NCBI GenBank assembly: GCA_015067975.1
Contig: SVLK01000010.1
Location: 1-49,785 of the forward strand
Length of the DNA stretch: 49,785 bases
Reading direction: 5' to 3'
Source of the DNA: Oscillospiraceae bacterium
GTDB lineage: Bacteria > Bacillota > Clostridia > Oscillospirales > Oscillospiraceae
Below are positions 3,170 through 11,715 of this stretch, piece by piece. The number at the start of each line of letters is the position of its first letter. The stretch's first letter is position 1. Position numbers and translations under genes: made by a program. The notes beneath the pieces were generated by a model. The model worked only from the letters and a program-made list of their open reading frames with translations. It did no database searches and was not told the origin of the DNA.

Positions 3170-3246
3170 ATATCAAAGGATAAAGGGAAACCGCTCCCCG
3201 ACCCTTTTTCGCCCCGTTGACCGGACAGAGGAAAGGAGCAACCAAT

Positions 3247-3783
3247 ATGAAGTTCACATTTACTTGCAAGAAGATTTCCCTCAATAACTCCGTGAAGGAA
3301 TATGCCGAGAAGAAGATCAGTAAGCTGGATCGGTATTTCCAGGAGGATGCGGAAGCATTTGTGACCTTCGCCGTGGAGAAGAAGAACCGCTGTGTCGTGG
3401 AACTGACCATCCGCGCCGCCAACGGAACGCTCTTCCGTGCACAGGAAGAGGATCCCGACGGTGATATGCGCGGGGCCATCGATGCGGCCGTCAACTTCAT
3501 CGAGCGCCGTATTCGCAAGAATAAGACCCGTCTTGCCAAGAACCTGCGTCCTGACGCTGTGGAGACTGTGGTTCCTGAGTTCGAGGTGGCTGAAGAGGCC
3601 GATTACGAAGTGGTGCGCACCAAGCGCTTCGCCGTCAAGCCCATGAGCACCGAGGAGGCCATCTTGCAGATGAACCTGCTGGACCACGCTTTCTATGTGT
3701 TCCGCAGCATGGACACTAACGCTGTCAGCGTCGTCTACCGCCGCAACAATGGCGGCTATGGCCTGATCGAGACGGAGGAATAA
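3247..3783 (+). CDS. hpf: Ribosome hibernation promoting factor, long form
   Basis: A 178-residue protein that dimerises 70S ribosomes into inactive 100S particles in stationary phase or stress. The N-terminal S30AE/RaiA domain covers about residues 1-100 (MKFTFTCKKISLNNS, then KLDRYF). The C-terminal dimerisation domain has the family signature KRFAVKPMSTEEAILQMNLL followed by HAFYVF. The length fits the long form typical of Gram-positives. I chose the ATG at 3247 because an AAAGGAG site precedes it; an in-frame ATG at 3217 lies upstream of that site. The gene stands alone with its own promoter and terminator. Confidence 0.96.
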   Translation: MKFTFTCKKISLNNSVKEYAEKKISKLDRYFQEDAEAFVTFAVEKKNRCVVELTIRAANGTLFRAQEEDPDGDMRGAIDAAVNFIERRIRKNKTRLAKNLRPDAVETVVPEFEVAEEADYEVVRTKRFAVKPMSTEEAILQMNLLDHAFYVFRSMDTNAVSVVYRRNNGGYGLIETEE

Positions 3784-3796
3784 GCCTGATAAAAAA

Positions 3797-3830
3797 TCAA
3801 AGAGCTGTGCCGCAAGGCACAGCTCTTTTC
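3797..3830. terminator. Bidirectional terminator between hpf and the larA-like gene
   Basis: AGAGCTGTGCC (3801-3811), loop GCAA, GGCACAGCTCT (3816-3826), with T's on the plus side and A's on the minus side. It serves both converging transcripts. Confidence 0.9.
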
Positions 3831-3848: not shown

Positions 3849-5123
3849 TCAGCCTTCAAAACGGCTCTTGTCGATCCACAGACCCAGCGCGGGGTTGGGG
3901 ATGAAGTAGATCTCCTCGCCGTCGGGCATGGTGTTGTAGCCGTAGGAGAGCTTTTCGGGGTCGTAGCGGCGCGCCGTCTCGTCGTAATCCACAGCGCCGA
4001 AGCCTACGCCCTCCACTTCCTCGAGGGAAATGTGCTTCACCGCGTAGGTGATGGTAAAGCGGCCGTCGGAGGAGCCGTGGATCAGATGGGCAGCGGCGCC
4101 CATGTTCTGCTGCAGATCCTCGTTTTCCTTGAAATCCTGCAGGATCTGCAGTCGGCCGCGGTAGCCGTACTTGCGGATCAGGCCATCGATGGTCTCATCT
4201 TCGCCAAAACGCTCAATGCCGGGGGCCAGCACCAGCAGCTCACCGCCGTCGGCGATGGCCATGCGGGTGCGGTAAACCGACTTGTTGCCCAGCCACGTGG
4301 TGCGGAACTCCTTGGGATCCAGGTACACCACGCACTTTTTGATGCCGGTGGGCACATAGTCCATGTTCTTCTGCTGCGCCAGCGCCACGGCCTCTTCCAG
4401 CACACGGCGGGTATCACCGATGAACAGACCGTGGGTGCGGATATTGCCGCCGGGCGCGGTGGTCACGGTGAGGGCGAAGACGATGGGACGGTTGCCCAGA
4501 TACTCCTTGAGTGCGTAGTCGAAGATTTTGCGCACGGGAGTATGATCGCGGCCCATCATGCGCTCCATGCCGTACACGGCGCCTACCATGTGGCTCTTGT
4601 TGATCATGTCGCTGCCGCCGACGCCTACGAACAGGTTCTTGGCGTGGTTGGCCATGCCGATGACTTCGTGAGGCACCACTTGACCGACAGACAAAATCAG
4701 CTCGTAGCTGGGATCCATCACCAGGCGGTTGATCTCCACGCTGACAGGATCGCTCCACAGCCCCTCGGTGATATCGCTGACGAACTTGCCGCTGACCTCA
4801 CCCAGCCGCACCACATCGGTGCGCCAGTTATGGGGAATGAACTTCTCAAAGGGGATGTCGCCGAACATATCGGCGGCCTCTTCCTTCGTCACCGGTACAT
4901 GGGTGCCCAGTGCGGGGACAACATCCACCTCGCAGCCCATGTCGGTCAGCAGGTGGTAGTACACGTTGGTGATAAAACCGGCGTTGGAATGATAGCGGGT
5001 GTAGTCGGGAGGCAGCAGCAGCGCCTTCTTGGGCTGCTTGCCTTCCAGAGAACGGACGAGGGCAGCGCGGATTTCCTCCGCGCTGAGACCCTGCTCCGTT
5101 TGTGCGTGATAGAAAAGTTCCAT
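3849..5123 (-). CDS. LarA-family nickel-pincer 2-hydroxyacid epimerase, likely acting on a sugar acid
   Basis: A 424-residue member of the lactate racemase (LarA, DUF2088) superfamily, which uses a nickel-pincer nucleotide cofactor. The ligand and acid/base residues are all present: His75 (GTHVP), His152 (VPHEV), Lys162 (HAKNL) and His178 (KSHMV). The spacings His-10-Lys-16-His are the same as LarA His174, Lys184 and His200. It is the last gene of the leftward uxaC-kinase-gnd operon. I recall that characterised LarA homologues include a D-gluconate 2-epimerase. Gluconate and mannonate are C2 epimers, so I infer mannonate/gluconate interconversion here. I prefer the ATG at 5123, which has a GAGGAG site; the ATG at 5141 overlaps the gnd stop but has none. 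The cofactor genes larB, larC and larE are not in the window. Confidence 0.85.
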   Translation of the reverse strand: MELFYHAQTEQGLSAEEIRAALVRSLEGKQPKKALLLPPDYTRYHSNAGFITNVYYHLLTDMGCEVDVVPALGTHVPVTKEEAADMFGDIPFEKFIPHNWRTDVVRLGEVSGKFVSDITEGLWSDPVSVEINRLVMDPSYELILSVGQVVPHEVIGMANHAKNLFVGVGGSDMINKSHMVGAVYGMERMMGRDHTPVRKIFDYALKEYLGNRPIVFALTVTTAPGGNIRTHGLFIGDTRRVLEEAVALAQQKNMDYVPTGIKKCVVYLDPKEFRTTWLGNKSVYRTRMAIADGGELLVLAPGIERFGEDETIDGLIRKYGYRGRLQILQDFKENEDLQQNMGAAAHLIHGSSDGRFTITYAVKHISLEEVEGVGFGAVDYDETARRYDPEKLSYGYNTMPDGEEIYFIPNPALGLWIDKSRFEG

Positions 5124-5140
5124 CCTGCGCTCCTCTGCCA

Positions 5141-6592
5141 TCAGGCGTTGTAGGTGGAGGAGTGAGTGCTGCCGCCTTTACCGGTCCAGTTGGTGTGGAA
5201 GACCTGACCGCGGGGGCAGTCGGTGCGCTCGTAGGTGTGAGCACCGAAGTAGTCGCGCTGTGCCTGCAGCAAGTTGGCGGGCAGGCACTCGGTGGTGTAG
5301 CCGTCAAAGTAGTTGAGGGCGGAGGAGAATGCGGGCATGGGGATGCCTACCTTCACTGCGTAAGCGATGACTTCGCGCCATGCGGGCACCAGATTCTCGA
5401 TGACCTCGGCGAAGTAATCGTCCATCAGCAGGTTCAGCAGCTCGGGGTTCTTGTCGAAAGCTTCCTTGATCTTGCCCAGGAACACGCTGCGGATGATGCA
5501 GCCGCCGCGCCACATGAGGGCCAGACCGCCGTAGTTCAGGTTCCAGCCATAGGTCTTGGCAGCGCTGCGCATTACGGCGTAGCCCTGTGCGTAGGAGATG
5601 ATCTTGGAGGCATACAGCGCCTTGCGGATGCACTCGATGAAAGCTTCCTTGTCGCCCTCGAAAGCGGGGATGCTCTTGGGGAAGCGTTTGGCAGCGGCCA
5701 CGCGCTCCGTCTTCACGGCGCTCAGGCAGCGGGAGAACACGGCCTCGCCGATCAGGGTCAGGGAAACGCCCTCGTCCAGTGCGGAGATGACGGTCCACTT
5801 GCCCATGCCTTTCTGGCCGGCAGCGTCCAGAATGTAGTCCACGGTGGTCTCGCCCTTTTCGTCCTTGTAGCCCAGAATGTCGCGGGTGATCTCGATGAGG
5901 TAGCTGTCCAGCTCGCCCTCGTTCCACTCGGCGAACACCTTGTGCATTTCCTCGGCGGTCATGCCCAGACCGTCGCGCATCAGGTGATAGGCCTCGCAGA
6001 TCAGCTGCATATCACCGTACTCGATGCCGTTGTGTACCATCTTCACGAAGTGACCGGCGCCGTTCTCGCCCACCCAGTCGCAGCAGGGATCGCCGTTTTC
6101 CACCTTAGCGCAGATGCTCTGGAAGATGGGCTTGACGAAGGGCCATGCAGCGGGGGAGCCGCCGGGCATCAGGGAGGGGCCGTTCAGAGCGCCCTCTTCG
6201 CCGCCGGACACGCCGCAGCCAACGTACAGCAGGCCCTTGCTCTCCACATAAGCGGTGCGGCGGGCGGTGTCGGGGAAGTGGCTGTTGCCGCCGTCGATGA
6301 TGATATCACCGGGCTCGAGGTGCTGCAGCAGCGTTTCAATCAAGTTGTCCACGGCGTCGCCGGCCTTGACCATCATCATGACGCGGCGGGGCTTTTCCAG
6401 CTTGGAAACCAACTCTTCGATGGTGTAGGTGCCGATGATGTTCTTGCCCTTGGCGCGGCCTTCCACAAAATTGGTGACCTTGTCGCCGGTGCGGTTGTAT
6501 ACGGCTACGGTGAATCCCTTGGACTCCATGTTCATGACCAGGTTTTCACCCATAACTGCCAGGCCAATCAGGCCGATATCTGCCATTTTCAT
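5141..6592 (-). CDS. gnd: 6-phosphogluconate dehydrogenase, decarboxylating
   Basis: A 483-residue enzyme that oxidises 6-phosphogluconate to ribulose 5-phosphate and CO2 with NAD(P)+. The Rossmann motif GLAVMGENL lies near the N-terminus. The substrate signature HNGIEYGDMQ and the catalytic segment KMVHNGIE are intact, and the length matches the E. coli-type long enzyme. It lies inside a sugar-acid operon between a PfkB kinase and a LarA-like epimerase, which ties it to catabolism of gluconate made or imported there. Starts at 6592 (ATG), 6595 (GTG) and 6586 (ATG) are possible; an AAAGGAG site lies just upstream. Confidence 0.96.
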   Translation of the reverse strand: MKMADIGLIGLAVMGENLVMNMESKGFTVAVYNRTGDKVTNFVEGRAKGKNIIGTYTIEELVSKLEKPRRVMMMVKAGDAVDNLIETLLQHLEPGDIIIDGGNSHFPDTARRTAYVESKGLLYVGCGVSGGEEGALNGPSLMPGGSPAAWPFVKPIFQSICAKVENGDPCCDWVGENGAGHFVKMVHNGIEYGDMQLICEAYHLMRDGLGMTAEEMHKVFAEWNEGELDSYLIEITRDILGYKDEKGETTVDYILDAAGQKGMGKWTVISALDEGVSLTLIGEAVFSRCLSAVKTERVAAAKRFPKSIPAFEGDKEAFIECIRKALYASKIISYAQGYAVMRSAAKTYGWNLNYGGLALMWRGGCIIRSVFLGKIKEAFDKNPELLNLLMDDYFAEVIENLVPAWREVIAYAVKVGIPMPAFSSALNYFDGYTTECLPANLLQAQRDYFGAHTYERTDCPRGQVFHTNWTGKGGSTHSSTYNA

Positions 6593-6629
6593 CACTATAT
6601 TCTCCTTTTTTGTCAGTATATGAGAGATT

Positions 6630-7688
6630 TTAGCGCTTCACGCGGGCGTTGCCGCTCCAGATAGCCCAGACCTGCTCCTCGTCGGCAGGCTGCGCATAGT
6701 CGTTGAGCATGGTGGCAGCCATCACGCCGGTGGCCCAGCCAAAGTGCAGGCAGTCCTCTGCCTTCCAGTTCTTCAAAATGCCGTAGAGCAGACCGCCCAC
6801 AAAGCCGTCGCCGCCGCCGATGCGGTCCATGACCTGAATGGGACGGGGTTCAGCCACGTGCCACTGGCCGTCGCGCAGCAGGATAGCGCCCCACAGATGC
6901 TCGTTGGCGTTGATGACCTGACGCAGCGTGGTGGCGAAGGTAGTGGCGTTGGGATACTGCTCCTGCACGCGCAGGATCATCTCCTTGAAGGACTCGATCT
7001 TGCCGCTCAGGTCCTTGCCGCCGGCCTCGGGGCCCTTGACCTTCAGGCACAGCTGGAAGTCCTCTTCGTTGCCGATGAGGATATCGGACAGAGAAGCGAT
7101 TTCATGGAAGGCGGCGTGCAGCTCTTCCTCGCGGCCCTTCCAGAAGGAAGCGCGGTGGTTCAGGTCGAAGGAGATCTTGGTGCCGTAGGTCTTGGCGGCA
7201 CGGGCCAGCTCCACGCAGAAACGGCTGGTCTCGCTGCTCAGGGCGGCGATCAGGCCGCTCAGGTGCAGCACTTCCACGCCCTCTTCACCGAAGATGCGCT
7301 CCAGATCGAAGTCCTCCACCTTCAGCGTGCGGCCCACTTCGCCGGCGCGGTCGTTCTGTACGCGGGGTCCGCGCAGACCGAAACCGGAATCGGCGATGTT
7401 GAACTGGTGACGGTAACCCCAGGGATCGCCCTGCGGCACTTCCTTGCCCTCGTACTCCATGCCGCGGCTGCGCAGGTCGTTCTTGATGAACTGAGCGATA
7501 GGAGAGCCTTCCACAAAGGTGGTCAGCACCTTGACGGGCAGACCCAGAGCGGCGGAAACGGAAGCCACGTTGGTCTCGGCGCTGGTGGCCTGCATGTAGA
7601 ATTCGTGGCTGATGTGTACGGGCTGGCGGTTGATGGGGGTGATACGGACACCCATGCTGGTGGGCACCACAAGTGCGTAGCGTTTCAT
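6630..7688 (-). CDS. PfkB-family sugar (acid) kinase
   Basis: A 352-residue ribokinase/PfkB-fold kinase. The C-terminal signature RIGGGDGFVGGLLYG holds the catalytic Asp and the anion-hole glycines, and FDLNHRASFW lies in the core. It most resembles 2-keto-3-deoxygluconate kinases (KdgK), the usual call. However, its operon has gnd and a LarA-like epimerase and no dehydratase or aldolase, so gluconate, giving 6-phosphogluconate, is an equally plausible substrate. I chose the ATG at 7688 (AGAGGAG upstream); the longer reading starts inside uxaC. It lies 25 bases downstream of the uxaC stop. Confidence 0.85.
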   Translation of the reverse strand: MKRYALVVPTSMGVRITPINRQPVHISHEFYMQATSAETNVASVSAALGLPVKVLTTFVEGSPIAQFIKNDLRSRGMEYEGKEVPQGDPWGYRHQFNIADSGFGLRGPRVQNDRAGEVGRTLKVEDFDLERIFGEEGVEVLHLSGLIAALSSETSRFCVELARAAKTYGTKISFDLNHRASFWKGREEELHAAFHEIASLSDILIGNEEDFQLCLKVKGPEAGGKDLSGKIESFKEMILRVQEQYPNATTFATTLRQVINANEHLWGAILLRDGQWHVAEPRPIQVMDRIGGGDGFVGGLLYGILKNWKAEDCLHFGWATGVMAATMLNDYAQPADEEQVWAIWSGNARVKR

Positions 7689-7713
7689 AGTTATTTTCTC
7701 CTCTTTCATTCCG

Positions 7714-9135
7714 TTATTTGATCCATTTGTCAAAGCCAAAGTAGTTACGTGTGTTGTAGTAGCTGATGTTCTCCACCAGAGAACTCAGCAGCTCCCTATC
7801 CATGGGATATTCGCCGTTTTCCGCCATAGTGCCCAACAGGTTGCACAGGATCCGGCGGAAGTATTCGTGACGGGTGTAGCTGAGGAAGCTGCGGCTGTCG
7901 GTGAGCATACCCACAAAGGTGCCCACGGCGCCCAGCGCCATCAGATCGGTAAGTTGATGTTCCATGCCCTTCTTGTGGTCATTGAACCACCAGGCGCTGC
8001 CCATCTGCATGCGGCCGGGCACGCTGCTGTTGGTCTGGAACGAGCCCATAATGGTGGCCACCACAGCGTTGTCGGCAGGATTGAGGGAGTAGAGCACGGT
8101 GCGGGGCAGTGCGCCGTCCCGCTCCAGCAGGCTCAGGAGCCGTGCCAGCGTGGGTGCGGTGTCACCGGCATCGTTGATGGCATCGTAACCGGTGTCGGCG
8201 CCCAGCTTTTCAAACATGGTGGCAGAAGCGTTGCGTACGCAGCTGAAGTGCAGCTGCATGGCCCAGTCCTTCTCCACATAGGCCTTGGCACAGGTGCGCA
8301 GCACGGCGGTCTGGAACGCCTCGGACTCGGCCATGCTGATGGCCTCGCCGGCGCGTCCGCGCTGCAGGATATTGTTGAGCACTTCTTCCGAGGCGGTTCG
8401 GCAGACGATCTTATCCAGTCCGTGATCGCTGACGCGGCAGCCGGCAGCGTGGAAGAACTCGATGCGATTCAAAAGTGCCTGCCGCAGATCGTCCATAGAG
8501 GTGATGCTGATGCCGGCGGCCTTTTCCAGCTTTTCGATGTAGGCACCGAAGTCCGGCTTGTCGGGGCGGGAGGCCTTGTCGGGCCGGAAGGTAGGCAGCA
8601 CGGCGCTCTTAACAGAAGCGTCGGCGGCGATGGCCAGATGGTGGCGCAGATCATCCGCCGGATCGTCGGTGGTGCAGATCAGCTGCACGTTGCTCTTTTC
8701 CATCATGCCCCGGGCGGACATGTCCTCACGCTGCAGCGCAGCGTTGCAGGCGCGATAAACTTCGTCGGCATTTTTGGCGCTCAGCGGCTCATAGATGTCG
8801 AAGTAGCGCTGCAGCTCCAGATGCGTCCAGTGATACAGCGGGTTGCCGGCCAGCATCGGCAGCGTGGCGGCCCAGGCGCGGAACTTTTCCTCGTCGCTGC
8901 CATCGCCGGTGATCAGGCGTTCCGGAACGCCGCACGAGCGCATGGCGCGCCACTTATAGTGGTCACCACCCAGCCATACCTGCGTGATGGTCGAAAAATG
9001 CCGGTCTTCGGCGATCTCCGCCGGGTTGATATGGCAGTGATAGTCGATGATCGGCATGCGTGCAGCGTGCTGGTGATAGAGCGTGCGGGCCGTGTCATTG
9101 AGCAGCAGGAAATCCTTGTCCATAAACGGCTTCAT
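7714..9135 (-). CDS. uxaC: Glucuronate (uronate) isomerase
   Basis: A 473-residue member of the uronate isomerase family in the amidohydrolase superfamily. It converts D-glucuronate to D-fructuronate, and D-galacturonate to D-tagaturonate. The metal-site motif DYHCHI lies at residues 31-36, and GAVGTFVGMLTDSRSF and YTRHEYFRRILCN are the conserved C-terminal segments. The length is normal for the family. A GAGGTG site precedes the ATG. It is the first gene of the leftward operon and is divergent from the fructuronate-reductase-like gene, which uses its product. Confidence 0.97.
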   Translation of the reverse strand: MKPFMDKDFLLLNDTARTLYHQHAARMPIIDYHCHINPAEIAEDRHFSTITQVWLGGDHYKWRAMRSCGVPERLITGDGSDEEKFRAWAATLPMLAGNPLYHWTHLELQRYFDIYEPLSAKNADEVYRACNAALQREDMSARGMMEKSNVQLICTTDDPADDLRHHLAIAADASVKSAVLPTFRPDKASRPDKPDFGAYIEKLEKAAGISITSMDDLRQALLNRIEFFHAAGCRVSDHGLDKIVCRTASEEVLNNILQRGRAGEAISMAESEAFQTAVLRTCAKAYVEKDWAMQLHFSCVRNASATMFEKLGADTGYDAINDAGDTAPTLARLLSLLERDGALPRTVLYSLNPADNAVVATIMGSFQTNSSVPGRMQMGSAWWFNDHKKGMEHQLTDLMALGAVGTFVGMLTDSRSFLSYTRHEYFRRILCNLLGTMAENGEYPMDRELLSSLVENISYYNTRNYFGFDKWIK

Positions 9136-9196
9136 TGTGCTTCACCTCTTCATTTTGTTCGCAAAGCGGTGGGCATTTGCCCCCATTCTTGAGGCC

Positions 9197-9225
9197 AGTA
9201 TAGCACTGGTATATCAGAAAAGCAA
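9197..9225 (-). promoter_or_regulatory. Promoter of the uxaC operon with embedded operator-like palindrome
   Basis: On the minus strand, TTGCTT (9220-9225), a 17-base spacer and TATACT (9197-9202). The spacer holds CTGGTATATCAG (9206-9217). This is an imperfect palindrome that differs by one base in its core from the TGGTATACCA core of UxuR/ExuR-type operators of FCD-family GntR regulators. Confidence 0.65.
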
Positions 9226-9295
9226 TAGTATTTTTTAAAAATCTTAAAACCCTTGAAAATAAAGGAAAAAATAAAAATACAGGTGATATATTTCC

Positions 9296-9323
9296 TTGAC
9301 ATTTTGCGGCGGCGGGTATACTC
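9296..9323 (+). promoter_or_regulatory. Promoter of the uxuB-like gene and gntR, with operator-like -10
   Basis: TTGACA (9296-9301), a 15-base spacer and TATACT (9317-9322). The -10 lies inside GGGTATACTC (9314-9323), a second GGTATAC-type near-palindrome, so a repressor here would block RNA polymerase. Confidence 0.55.
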
Positions 9324-9390
9324 TGTAGATGAGTATGGAAGCGAGGCGGAAAAAGAACGCCGCCACACAAAAACAAAGGAGGACTCGTCT

Positions 9391-11007
9391 ATGAAACTCT
9401 CCAACGCATCTATCGCGGAAAATCGCGCATTGTTTGAAGCCAAGGGCTACGAAATGCCTCAGTTCGACCGCGAAGTCATGATAGCCAATACCGCCGCACG
9501 CCCTACGTGGGTACATTTCGGCGCCGGCAATATTTTCCGCGGCTTTTTGGCACCGCTGAGCCAGCAGATGCTCAACGAGGGCCTGACGGATACCGGTATT
9601 GTGGTGGCGGTGGGGTTTGACTCCTCGCTGCTGGACGCCGTTTATCGTCCCTATGATAATCTGGCTGTGGTGGCAACGCTGTGTGCCGACGGTGAGATCC
9701 GCAAGAAAGTGGTGGCCAGCATGGCCGATACCATCTGCATGGTCCACGGCGGCGAAGAGTGGGAGCGACTGCTGGATGCTTTCCGCAACCCCTCACTGCA
9801 GATGGCCAGCCTGACCATCACCGAGAAGGGCTATAACTATCTGGACGGCGAGGGCAATGTGCTGCCCAACGTACTGAAAGATATGGAGGCCGGTCCTGCC
9901 GGTGCTGTGGGCTATCTGGGCCGTATCACGGCGCTGTGCCACGCCCGCTTTGTGGCCGGCGGCGCGCCTATTGCGCTGGTGAGTATGGATAACTGCTCCC
10001 ACAATGGAACGCGTCTGGAAGCTGCCGTGCTGGCCATTGCCGAAGGCTGGCTGCAGCGTGGACTGTGTGAGAGCACCTTTGTGGCCTGGCTGCGCGACCG
10101 CAGCAAGATCGCCTTCCCCTGGAGCATGATCGATAAGATCACCCCCCGCCCCGACGAATCGGTGCAGCAGATGCTGGAAGCCGACGGACTGGAGGGCATG
10201 GAGCTGCATGTGACCCGCCACGGTTCTTACGCCGCCGCTTTCGTCAATACGGAAGAGGCTCAGTATCTGGTGATCGAGGACAAGTTCCCCAACGGCCGTC
10301 CTCCGCTGGAGAAGACCGGCGTCATCTTCACCAACGGTGAAACGGTGGATATGGTGGAGACCATGAAGGTCTGCACCTGCCTTAATCCCCTGCATACCGC
10401 CATGTCCGTGGTGGGCTGCCTGCTGGGCTTTAAGCGCATCAACGAGGAGATGAAGGATGCCGATCTGGCTGCGCTGGTCAACCGCGTTGGCTATGTGGAA
10501 GGCCTGCCCGTAGTGGTGGATCCCGGCGTTATCGATCCCAAGGCATTTATTGACGAGGTAATCGGCAAGCGTTTCCCCAACCCCTTCCTGCAGGATGATC
10601 CCCGCCGCATCGCCACCGATACATCCCAGAAGATCCCGGTGCGCTTCGGCAACACCATCCGCAAGTATGCTGCGCGCGACGATCTGGATGTGCGCGATTT
10701 GAAGTGCATCTCCTTCGTGCTGGCTGCGTGGTGCCGCTACCTGATGGCTATCGACGATACCGGTGCCGCCTTTACGCCCAGCGATGACCCCATGCTGCCG
10801 CAGCTCATGCCGCTGCTGGAAAAGGTGGAGCTGGGCAAGCCCTGCGACGTTCATGCAACGCTGCAGCCCATTTTGTCCAATGCCACCATCATGGGCAGCG
10901 ATTTGTATGAGATTGGTCTGGGCGAGCAGGTGGAGCAGTATTTCGCCAAGCTCATCACCGGCCCCGGTGCCGTGCGCGAGCAGCTGCATAAGGTAGTGAA
11001 CGAGTAA
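9391..11007 (+). CDS. uxuB: Fructuronate reductase-like mannitol dehydrogenase family protein
   Basis: A 538-residue long-chain polyol dehydrogenase. The NAD-binding motif HFGAGNIFRGF is near the N-terminus. The catalytic signature K-x5-N-x2-H is visible as KVCTCLNPLH. Family members reduce fructuronate to mannonate (UxuB) or tagaturonate to altronate (UxaB). The pairing with uxaC, and a downstream pathway that makes sense only from mannonate, favours UxuB, but substrate choice cannot be read directly. The ATG at 9391 follows AAAGGAGG at eight bases; the longer frame from 9253 contains the promoter. It forms an operon with the gntR gene 12 bases downstream. Confidence 0.88.
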   Translation: MKLSNASIAENRALFEAKGYEMPQFDREVMIANTAARPTWVHFGAGNIFRGFLAPLSQQMLNEGLTDTGIVVAVGFDSSLLDAVYRPYDNLAVVATLCADGEIRKKVVASMADTICMVHGGEEWERLLDAFRNPSLQMASLTITEKGYNYLDGEGNVLPNVLKDMEAGPAGAVGYLGRITALCHARFVAGGAPIALVSMDNCSHNGTRLEAAVLAIAEGWLQRGLCESTFVAWLRDRSKIAFPWSMIDKITPRPDESVQQMLEADGLEGMELHVTRHGSYAAAFVNTEEAQYLVIEDKFPNGRPPLEKTGVIFTNGETVDMVETMKVCTCLNPLHTAMSVVGCLLGFKRINEEMKDADLAALVNRVGYVEGLPVVVDPGVIDPKAFIDEVIGKRFPNPFLQDDPRRIATDTSQKIPVRFGNTIRKYAARDDLDVRDLKCISFVLAAWCRYLMAIDDTGAAFTPSDDPMLPQLMPLLEKVELGKPCDVHATLQPILSNATIMGSDLYEIGLGEQVEQYFAKLITGPGAVREQLHKVVNE

Positions 11008-11019
11008 GGGAGGTATCCC

Positions 11020-11715
11020 ATGACCCATTTAGCCATTCCACCCAAAAGAGAGGGTGAGAGCGGCCGGCAGTATGCCTACCGCGTGCTGTATTACGGCATC
11101 ATGTCGCTGCAGCTGCCGCCCAGCATGGTGCTCAGCGACAGTGAGCTGAGTCAGGCACTGCAGATCAGCCGTACGCCCATCCGCGAGGCCATTGTCTCGC
11201 TGCAGGAGGCCAAGCTGGTGGAGGTGTATCCCCAGCGCTCCAGCTGCGTGTCGCGAATCGATCTGGACGCCATTGAAGAGGGCGTATTTCTGCGTTATCA
11301 TACGGAGTGCGCCGTGTTCCGCGAAGCTGTCCATAAAGTGGACGGAGCTGCCGTGGGCCGGCTGCGCGCCAATCTGCTGGAGCAGCAGCGCTGCCTGGAA
11401 AGCGGCGACCTCTACGGCTATTTTGAAAGAGATAACGCTTTCCATAAGGAACTCTACCTCATGGCCGGTAAGCCGTGGGTGTGGGAAACGGTGTCACGCA
11501 TCGTGACCCACCATGACCGCGTGCGGCTGCTGCAGGCGCAGCTGGGCGACGAGCAGCTGTGGCAGGCCCACCGCGAGCATTGGGAGATACTGGATACGCT
11601 CATGTCCCGCAGCGAGAAGAACATGGATGAGTTCTTCCACGGCCATCTGACTGCCGGGTACCGCCATGCGCTGCCGGAACTGATCCGCCGCTTTCCCGAA
11701 TACTTTGTACTGTAA
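11020..11715 (+). CDS. GntR/FadR (FCD) family transcriptional regulator
   Basis: A 231-residue repressor-type protein. The N-terminal winged HTH (about residues 18-80) has the signature LQISRTPIREAIVSLQEAKLV, typical of GntR proteins. The C-terminal FCD all-helical domain has the Asp and His pattern DNAFHKELY, then histidines near ITHH and AHREHWEIL that bind a metal and the effector acid. Its place behind the uxuB-like gene and opposite uxaC makes it the likely sensor of a hexuronate, fructuronate or mannonate, binding the GGTATA sites at 9206 and 9314. A GGAGGT site precedes the ATG. Confidence 0.92.
   Translation: MTHLAIPPKREGESGRQYAYRVLYYGIMSLQLPPSMVLSDSELSQALQISRTPIREAIVSLQEAKLVEVYPQRSSCVSRIDLDAIEEGVFLRYHTECAVFREAVHKVDGAAVGRLRANLLEQQRCLESGDLYGYFERDNAFHKELYLMAGKPWVWETVSRIVTHHDRVRLLQAQLGDEQLWQAHREHWEILDTLMSRSEKNMDEFFHGHLTAGYRHALPELIRRFPEYFVL

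Follow-up and report, generated by a model that had tools for sequence, protein, structure and literature searches.

How can glucuronate be carried into central metabolism by a genome in which no mannonate dehydratase (UxuA) and no 2-keto-3-deoxy-6-phosphogluconate (KDPG) aldolase is detected? This question is raised by a locus of an Oscillospiraceae bacterium (contig SVLK01000010.1), studied here within a 49,785-nucleotide stretch (hereafter the window) of a genome that is about 84% complete (1.87 Mb searched, including the locus). Genes for glucuronate isomerase (uxaC), a PfkB-family kinase, 6-phosphogluconate dehydrogenase (gnd) and a homologue of LarA follow one another on one strand, divergent from a reductase gene and a regulator gene. 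Open reading frame (ORF) calls combined with Pfam and NCBIfam profile searches bore out the gene list, order and strands given in an earlier note on this DNA. We propose that UxaC would convert glucuronate to fructuronate, which the divergent reductase would reduce to D-mannonate; the LarA-type enzyme, with its nickel-pincer nucleotide (NPN) cofactor, would invert C2 and the PfkB kinase would add a phosphate to give 6-phosphogluconate, which Gnd would oxidize and decarboxylate to ribulose 5-phosphate. Gnd would regain what the reductase consumes in reducing equivalents, up to the type of cofactor. We consider it probable that the operon is such a uronate-to-pentose phosphate module, bypassing the end of the Entner-Doudoroff pathway through a LarA-type C2 epimerase, whichever of the two middle steps comes first. 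Gene families, conserved residues, fold, a conserved gene set and the absence of UxuA and KDPG aldolase point to this reading, and all of the substrates are predicted from them.

The gene set is conserved. From a genome-collection scan that gave 571 relatives, the best 80 were analyzed as named loci, "nearby" meaning within 8 kb of the epimerase gene. According to their titles, these loci come from Clostridia and other Bacillota, Spirochaetes, one Acholeplasmataceae, Kiritimatiellae, Victivallales, and Verrucomicrobia, many of them of gut or rumen origin. Gnd is encoded nearby in 59 of the 80, the cassette PfkB kinase in 43, a reductase in 38, and UxaC in 25, while tagaturonate epimerase (UxaE) is found in 12, KDPG aldolase in 4, UxuA in 3, and an FGGY kinase in 1. 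Contig ends cut many of these loci; where the flanks are sufficient (43 loci), the counts are 35 for Gnd, 31 for PfkB, and 24 for a uronate gene. The number of loci with both PfkB and Gnd is also 43: the two genes lie within 250 bases of each other on one strand in 42 of them, all three genes share the same strand in 43/43, and Gnd is at most 250 bases from the epimerase gene in 21/43. The full set was seen in Bacillota and Spirochaetes, and the closest relative among the best 80 (L079) repeats the whole layout of the window with UxaE added and a 54% relative of the GntR/FCD regulator at the corresponding position. Locus L130, from the cultivable Pseudoflavonifractor sp. MSJ-30, combines the kinase, gnd, and epimerase genes with a KDPG aldolase gene. 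The window's own order contributed 42 loci, some contigs of which are also among the named 80, so that the counts of the two sets are not summed; Gnd is nearby in 27 of them and PfkB in 16. L057 and L058 lie outside the analysis. The kinase-Gnd-epimerase set thus recurs in association with uronate genes across dozens of loci, and the evidence for the route is therefore stronger than the earlier note could offer.

The putative epimerase itself scores as a full member of group 18 of the LarA superfamily, with 617 bits against NF052594 (nickel-dependent putative hexonate epimerase, NPN_18_hexonate; cut-off, 500 bits) over residues 16-423. The residues of LarA involved in NPN binding and catalysis are R75, H108, H174, K184, and H200 according to passages of PMC11770544, and K298 according to passages of PMC7583248. 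Six residues of the window protein (R49, H81, H158, K168, H184, and K287) align with those of canonical LarA and are invariant in 42/42 full-length sequences, that of the window included, in agreement with the earlier claim that the cofactor and catalytic residues are kept. The signature of D-gluconate 2-epimerase (GntE), described in passages of PMC11770544 as E, V, A, and H at the positions of F175, F176, W358, and T359, is matched at its first half by E159 and V160, both aligned to canonical LarA and invariant. A351 and H352 are likewise invariant and match the A and H of 4nar; their equivalence to W358/T359 is presumed, the alignment with canonical LarA being poor in that part.

The earlier statement that neither UxuA nor KDPG aldolase is encoded at the locus extends to the whole 1.87 Mb, where no match to either was found by a search that left enolase-family and IlvD-type dehydratases and DHDPS-type aldolases outside its scope. 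Two congeners (97% and 100% complete) both encode UxuA and KDPG aldolase, and both are without the epimerase. Among 394 genomes of the order, UxuA was detected in 11/43 epimerase carriers versus 194/351 others (p 0.0003; all Fisher tests reported here ignore kinship). Nineteen of the 43 carriers have neither enzyme, 11 have both, and 13 have the aldolase alone. The two routes partly stand in for each other.

Several observations weigh against the proposed module. The 11 carriers with UxuA all have KDPG aldolase, which is present in 24/43 carriers, so that the two routes can coexist. Only 8 of the 42 own-order loci have a nearby member of the set of four uronate genes searched for, and 21 of the best 80 loci have no Gnd in the available stretch, 10 of these being from Kiritimatiellae, Victivallales, or Verrucomicrobia. 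These groups contribute 12 of the best 80, including some long loci in which the one or two neighbors sampled contain no uronate or pentose gene. The solved structure nearest to the PfkB kinase is the 2-keto-3-deoxygluconate (KDG) kinase of Thermotoga maritima (2afb, 27% identity). No larC, larE, or true larB scores above cut-off in the window's genome (84% complete), an absence that the earlier note had held to count against its own route. Finally, according to passages of PMC6978723, extracts of Lactobacillus suebicus made no gluconate from mannonate without ATP, and passages of PMC7583248 and PMC11770544 give Michaelis constants (KM) of 9 to 120 mM for mannonate with three tested GntEs, because of which the natural substrate may not be free mannonate.

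These last two points bear on the order of the middle steps. Phosphorylation could come first within the same module, with PfkB acting as a mannonate 6-kinase ahead of the LarA homologue, which would be a 6-phosphomannonate 2-epimerase; we regard this possibility as real but rather unlikely. The high KM values for free mannonate would fit this order, as would the kinase family, since the usual gluconate kinase families are, to our knowledge, FGGY and P-loop, and the cassette kinase belongs to neither. In addition, L. suebicus extracts phosphorylate mannonate and then epimerize the phosphate, through genes that are not known (passages of PMC6978723, the one paper listed in a literature search on these activities). 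L. suebicus was nevertheless outside our genome searches, and nothing ties its activities to the LarA family; its galacturonate route likewise runs from mannonate through 6-phosphogluconate to ribulose 5-phosphate in a redox-neutral way but differs by phosphorylating first, and PMC6978723 has 0 mentions of LarA or nickel. Passages of PMC7583248, in which GntE was assayed on mannonate, report that the tested GntEs do convert free D-mannonate to D-gluconate, which leads us to favor, to a modest degree, epimerization before phosphorylation. The operon offers candidate genes for the two activities reported without genes in L. suebicus.

The kinase is also where an ordinary Ashwell/Entner-Doudoroff route has to be considered, in which PfkB would be a KDG kinase, the mannonate dehydratase would be encoded elsewhere, and gnd and larA would serve another purpose. 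Besides the proximity to 2afb, the enzyme scores best in NCBIfam (164 bits) against the kinase portion of a fusion with KDPG aldolase, and the dehydratase and aldolase types beyond our genome search leave room for such a route. The structure search did not discriminate between KDG and gluconate as the substrate. The PfkB KDG kinases (2afb and 1v19) have a common fold with the cassette kinase. Scores against the curated NCBIfam KDG kinase models are 96, 44, and 28 bits for cut-offs of 440, 400, and 400, the KDG-kinase-like genes of sister loci being sub-cut-off likewise. Unlike KDG kinases, the cassette kinases adjoin gnd, and R110, H111, N129, E134, and G136 are invariant in 53/53 of them (50 distinct), whereas the KDG-kinase-like sequences of L079 and L136 differ at these five positions; a third non-cassette kinase, in L141, keeps the cassette residues. 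Moreover, L081, L136, and L139 hold a KDG-kinase-like PfkB beside KDPG aldolase (NF041633, 287, 431, and 329 bits, respectively; L081 and L139 scanned partly) plus a separate cassette PfkB beside gnd (168 bits in L081 and 174 in L136), and the two kinds coexist in L079 as well. Given that sister loci encode both kinase types, we judge a KDG kinase function of the PfkB enzyme unlikely, and, since the genome as searched yielded neither UxuA nor KDPG aldolase, we hold the ordinary route as a whole to be improbable. No PfkB-family gluconate kinase is reported in the titles or abstract openings among the matches listed for PfkB, gluconate kinase, and gluconokinase.

The reductase of the window passes the Pfam cut-offs of the mannitol-dehydrogenase family and scores 120 bits against the NCBIfam fructuronate reductase NF011611 (cut-off, 603) and 128 against D-arabinitol dehydrogenase (cut-off, 600). 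Among the best 80 loci, a reductase of this type occurs in 11 and an alternative short-chain dehydrogenase/reductase (SDR) in 26, never both, as expected because these would be two enzymes for one step; the two SDR copies scanned are both above the cut-off of the NCBIfam D-mannonate oxidoreductase. From this mutual exclusion and the context, we infer that the window enzyme is a fructuronate reductase. In L126 and L127, a 46% relative of the SDR adjoins the epimerase gene.

The epimerase could also act on another hexonate, e.g., altronate or gulonate, glucuronate being only one of its uses. Passages of PMC7583248 leave the group 18 substrate open as "a hexonate," and no assay of any group 18 member appears in the main-text passages of PMC7583248 and PMC11770544. 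In 19 of the 43 well-flanked loci, all four uronate genes sought are missing from the neighborhood, and there are loci in which the gene next to that of the epimerase encodes a TIM-barrel protein, others in which it encodes a PHP protein or a dehydratase. We nevertheless hold a different hexonate to be improbable, since UxaE, UxaC, and D-mannonate oxidoreductase recur beside the epimerase and since the kinase and Gnd neighbors make 6-phosphogluconate the expected product. Regarding the loci with other neighbors, a xylose-isomerase-like TIM barrel cluster is near the epimerase in six own-order loci (L034, L044, L066, L067, L071, and L078; PF01261 in L034 and L067, which were scanned), which suggests another operon type. 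A PHP-domain protein (scanned in L035) is encoded between epimerase and gnd in L035, L037, L039, L062, and L064. In L048 (2110-6213), the epimerase is flanked by an IlvD/Edd-type dehydratase on one side and a zinc alcohol dehydrogenase on the other, which may point to dehydration instead of the Gnd route. No cassette gene is near the epimerase in L103, L109, L111, L132, and L142 (Kiritimatiellae, Victivallales, and Verrucomicrobia), where the one or two neighbors sampled in each belong to other families, that of L132 having a phosphoribulokinase/uridine kinase domain.

If the epimerase needs NPN, where does the cofactor come from? The search for LarC and LarE covered all 394 order-level genomes and that for LarB the 43 carriers, with T. 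maritima as a control in which both LarC and LarE were detected. LarC is found in 12/43 carriers versus 94/351 others (p 0.86) and LarE in 10/43 versus 81/351 (p 1); LarB is above cut-off in 10/43 carriers, the same ten genomes as LarE. At an E value of 0.001, NF033503 (LarB) matches in 36/43 carriers, of which 10 pass and 26 have only sub-cut-off matches (22 to 48 bits) that we presume to be PurE-type carboxylases. Restricting the count to the 18 carriers that are ≥95% complete leaves 11 that encode neither LarC nor LarE, and incompleteness alone was rejected as the cause (P for ≥11/18 of 1e-10 at an independent 5% loss of each, and 1.6e-4 at 20%). Loss of the cofactor residues was ruled out as a way out, all six being invariant. 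Nor is the lack of cofactor genes peculiar to group 18: in 295 genomes (taken to be G000-G294; lists read by hand), LarC accompanies canonical LarA (PF09861, ≥120 bits) in 24/60 versus 57/235 others (p 0.02), a weak link within the order, and 36/60 genomes with canonical LarA are without LarC, a common situation. The clearest genetic tie to NPN synthesis is in G284 (L049, 5299-8293), where a group 18 LarA, LarB, and LarE lie in a row on one strand. Because carriers keep the cofactor residues without LarB, LarC, and LarE and because this row links group 18 to NPN, we conclude that NPN or one of its precursors passes between cells or that NPN is also made in another way. We further suggest, tentatively and at slightly less than an even chance, that many gut bacteria run the uronate route while unable to make NPN, obtaining it or a precursor from neighbors or through a route other than LarB-LarE-LarC. 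If so, gut communities would have NPN as a common cofactor. About three in four carriers sampled in the order keep the cofactor residues while the known cofactor genes are absent, which poses a concrete question on a rare nickel cofactor. The reverse case, larB, larE, and larC without larA, concerns about 15% of genomes according to passages of PMC11796402, while no report of LarA carriers without LarB, LarC, and LarE was found among the papers listed by the literature searches. The window's genome encodes a second LarA (L001, G000:C38:169189-169776), closest to the malate racemase Mar2 (6d6z, 409 bits) and, by eye, neighboring an FGGY kinase and malic enzyme; no LarB, LarC, or LarE accompanies it in the searched genome either.

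As told in passages of PMC6978723, the same pathway was proposed for T. maritima by Rodionova et al. in 2012. Passages of PMC3750489 describe the pectin/galacturonate operon aldH-pelB-gnd-uxaRED-gntEK of this species, where gnd, uxaE, uxaD, gntE, and gntK stand together, and GntE2 was assayed in PMC7583248, so that the route has been tested in part in Thermotoga. There, gntK takes the place of the PfkB enzyme and uxaD that of the mannitol-dehydrogenase-type reductase, and the epimerase is of group 20 instead of group 18; T. maritima also has a parallel kdgAK-uxuBA operon as well as LarC and LarE, whereas none of LarB, LarC, and LarE was found in the window's genome. We take T. maritima gntK to be of the FGGY type and uxaD to be an SDR. 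Hence, we regard this well-conserved module as a variant of the gnd-uxaRED-gntEK scheme that differs in its kinase, its reductase, and the group of its epimerase. The route drawn in the earlier note stands as the best-supported reading, given its recurrence with uronate genes, but not as a new pathway, nor with the cofactor genes that it called for, and its middle steps may run in either order. What is new is the spread among gut bacteria, the unusual kinase, and the missing cofactor synthesis. A little-known uronate pathway would be extended beyond a thermophile to numerous bacteria of the gut and rumen, giving a redox-neutral path from the uronates of pectin and glucuronoxylan to pentose phosphate that could be of use in engineering.

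The features of the locus are collected below.

Features of the uronate locus (positions in the window)
Feature	Position	Strand	Evidence
Inverted repeat flanked by T-rich tails, likely bidirectional terminator at the operon end	3799..3828		13-pair stem, both strands
Group 18 LarA homologue, putative nickel-dependent C2 epimerase of hexonates (mannonate/gluconate)	3849..5141	-	PF09861, 43 bits; NF052594, 617 bits
gnd, decarboxylating 6-phosphogluconate dehydrogenase	5141..6595	-	TIGR00873, 758 bits (cut-off 427); PF00393, PF03446
PfkB-family kinase, predicted to phosphorylate gluconate or mannonate at C6	6630..7739	-	PF00294, 70 bits
uxaC, glucuronate isomerase	7714..9135	-	NF002794, 615 bits (cut-off 387); PF02614, 658 bits
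Divergent intergenic region uxaC/reductase, presumed promoter region	9136..9390		sequence
Mannitol-dehydrogenase-family reductase, putative fructuronate reductase (UxuB-like), ATG at 9391	9391..11007	+	PF01232, PF08125
GntR/FCD transcriptional regulator	11020..11715	+	PF00392, PF07729

All four minus-strand genes are either overlapping or almost contiguous. Since gnd and larA share one base, the gap between PfkB and gnd is 34 bases, and the inverted repeat follows, uxaC-PfkB-gnd-larA is likely one operon. Terminator-like sites number 9 in the region versus 6.2 expected, which makes the repeat a consensus match only. A motif scan gave no sigma-70-like promoter match inside the divergent intergenic region. 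The modeled predicted local distance difference test (pLDDT) score of the PfkB ORF is below 50 over residues 1-16; these approximately 16 N-terminal residues are probably untranslated, the true start being an internal ATG at about 7709 or 7688. Downstream of larA and the operon end, the window encodes a radical SAM/SPASM protein (1452-2978) and an S30AE protein resembling ribosome hibernation factors (3217-3783).

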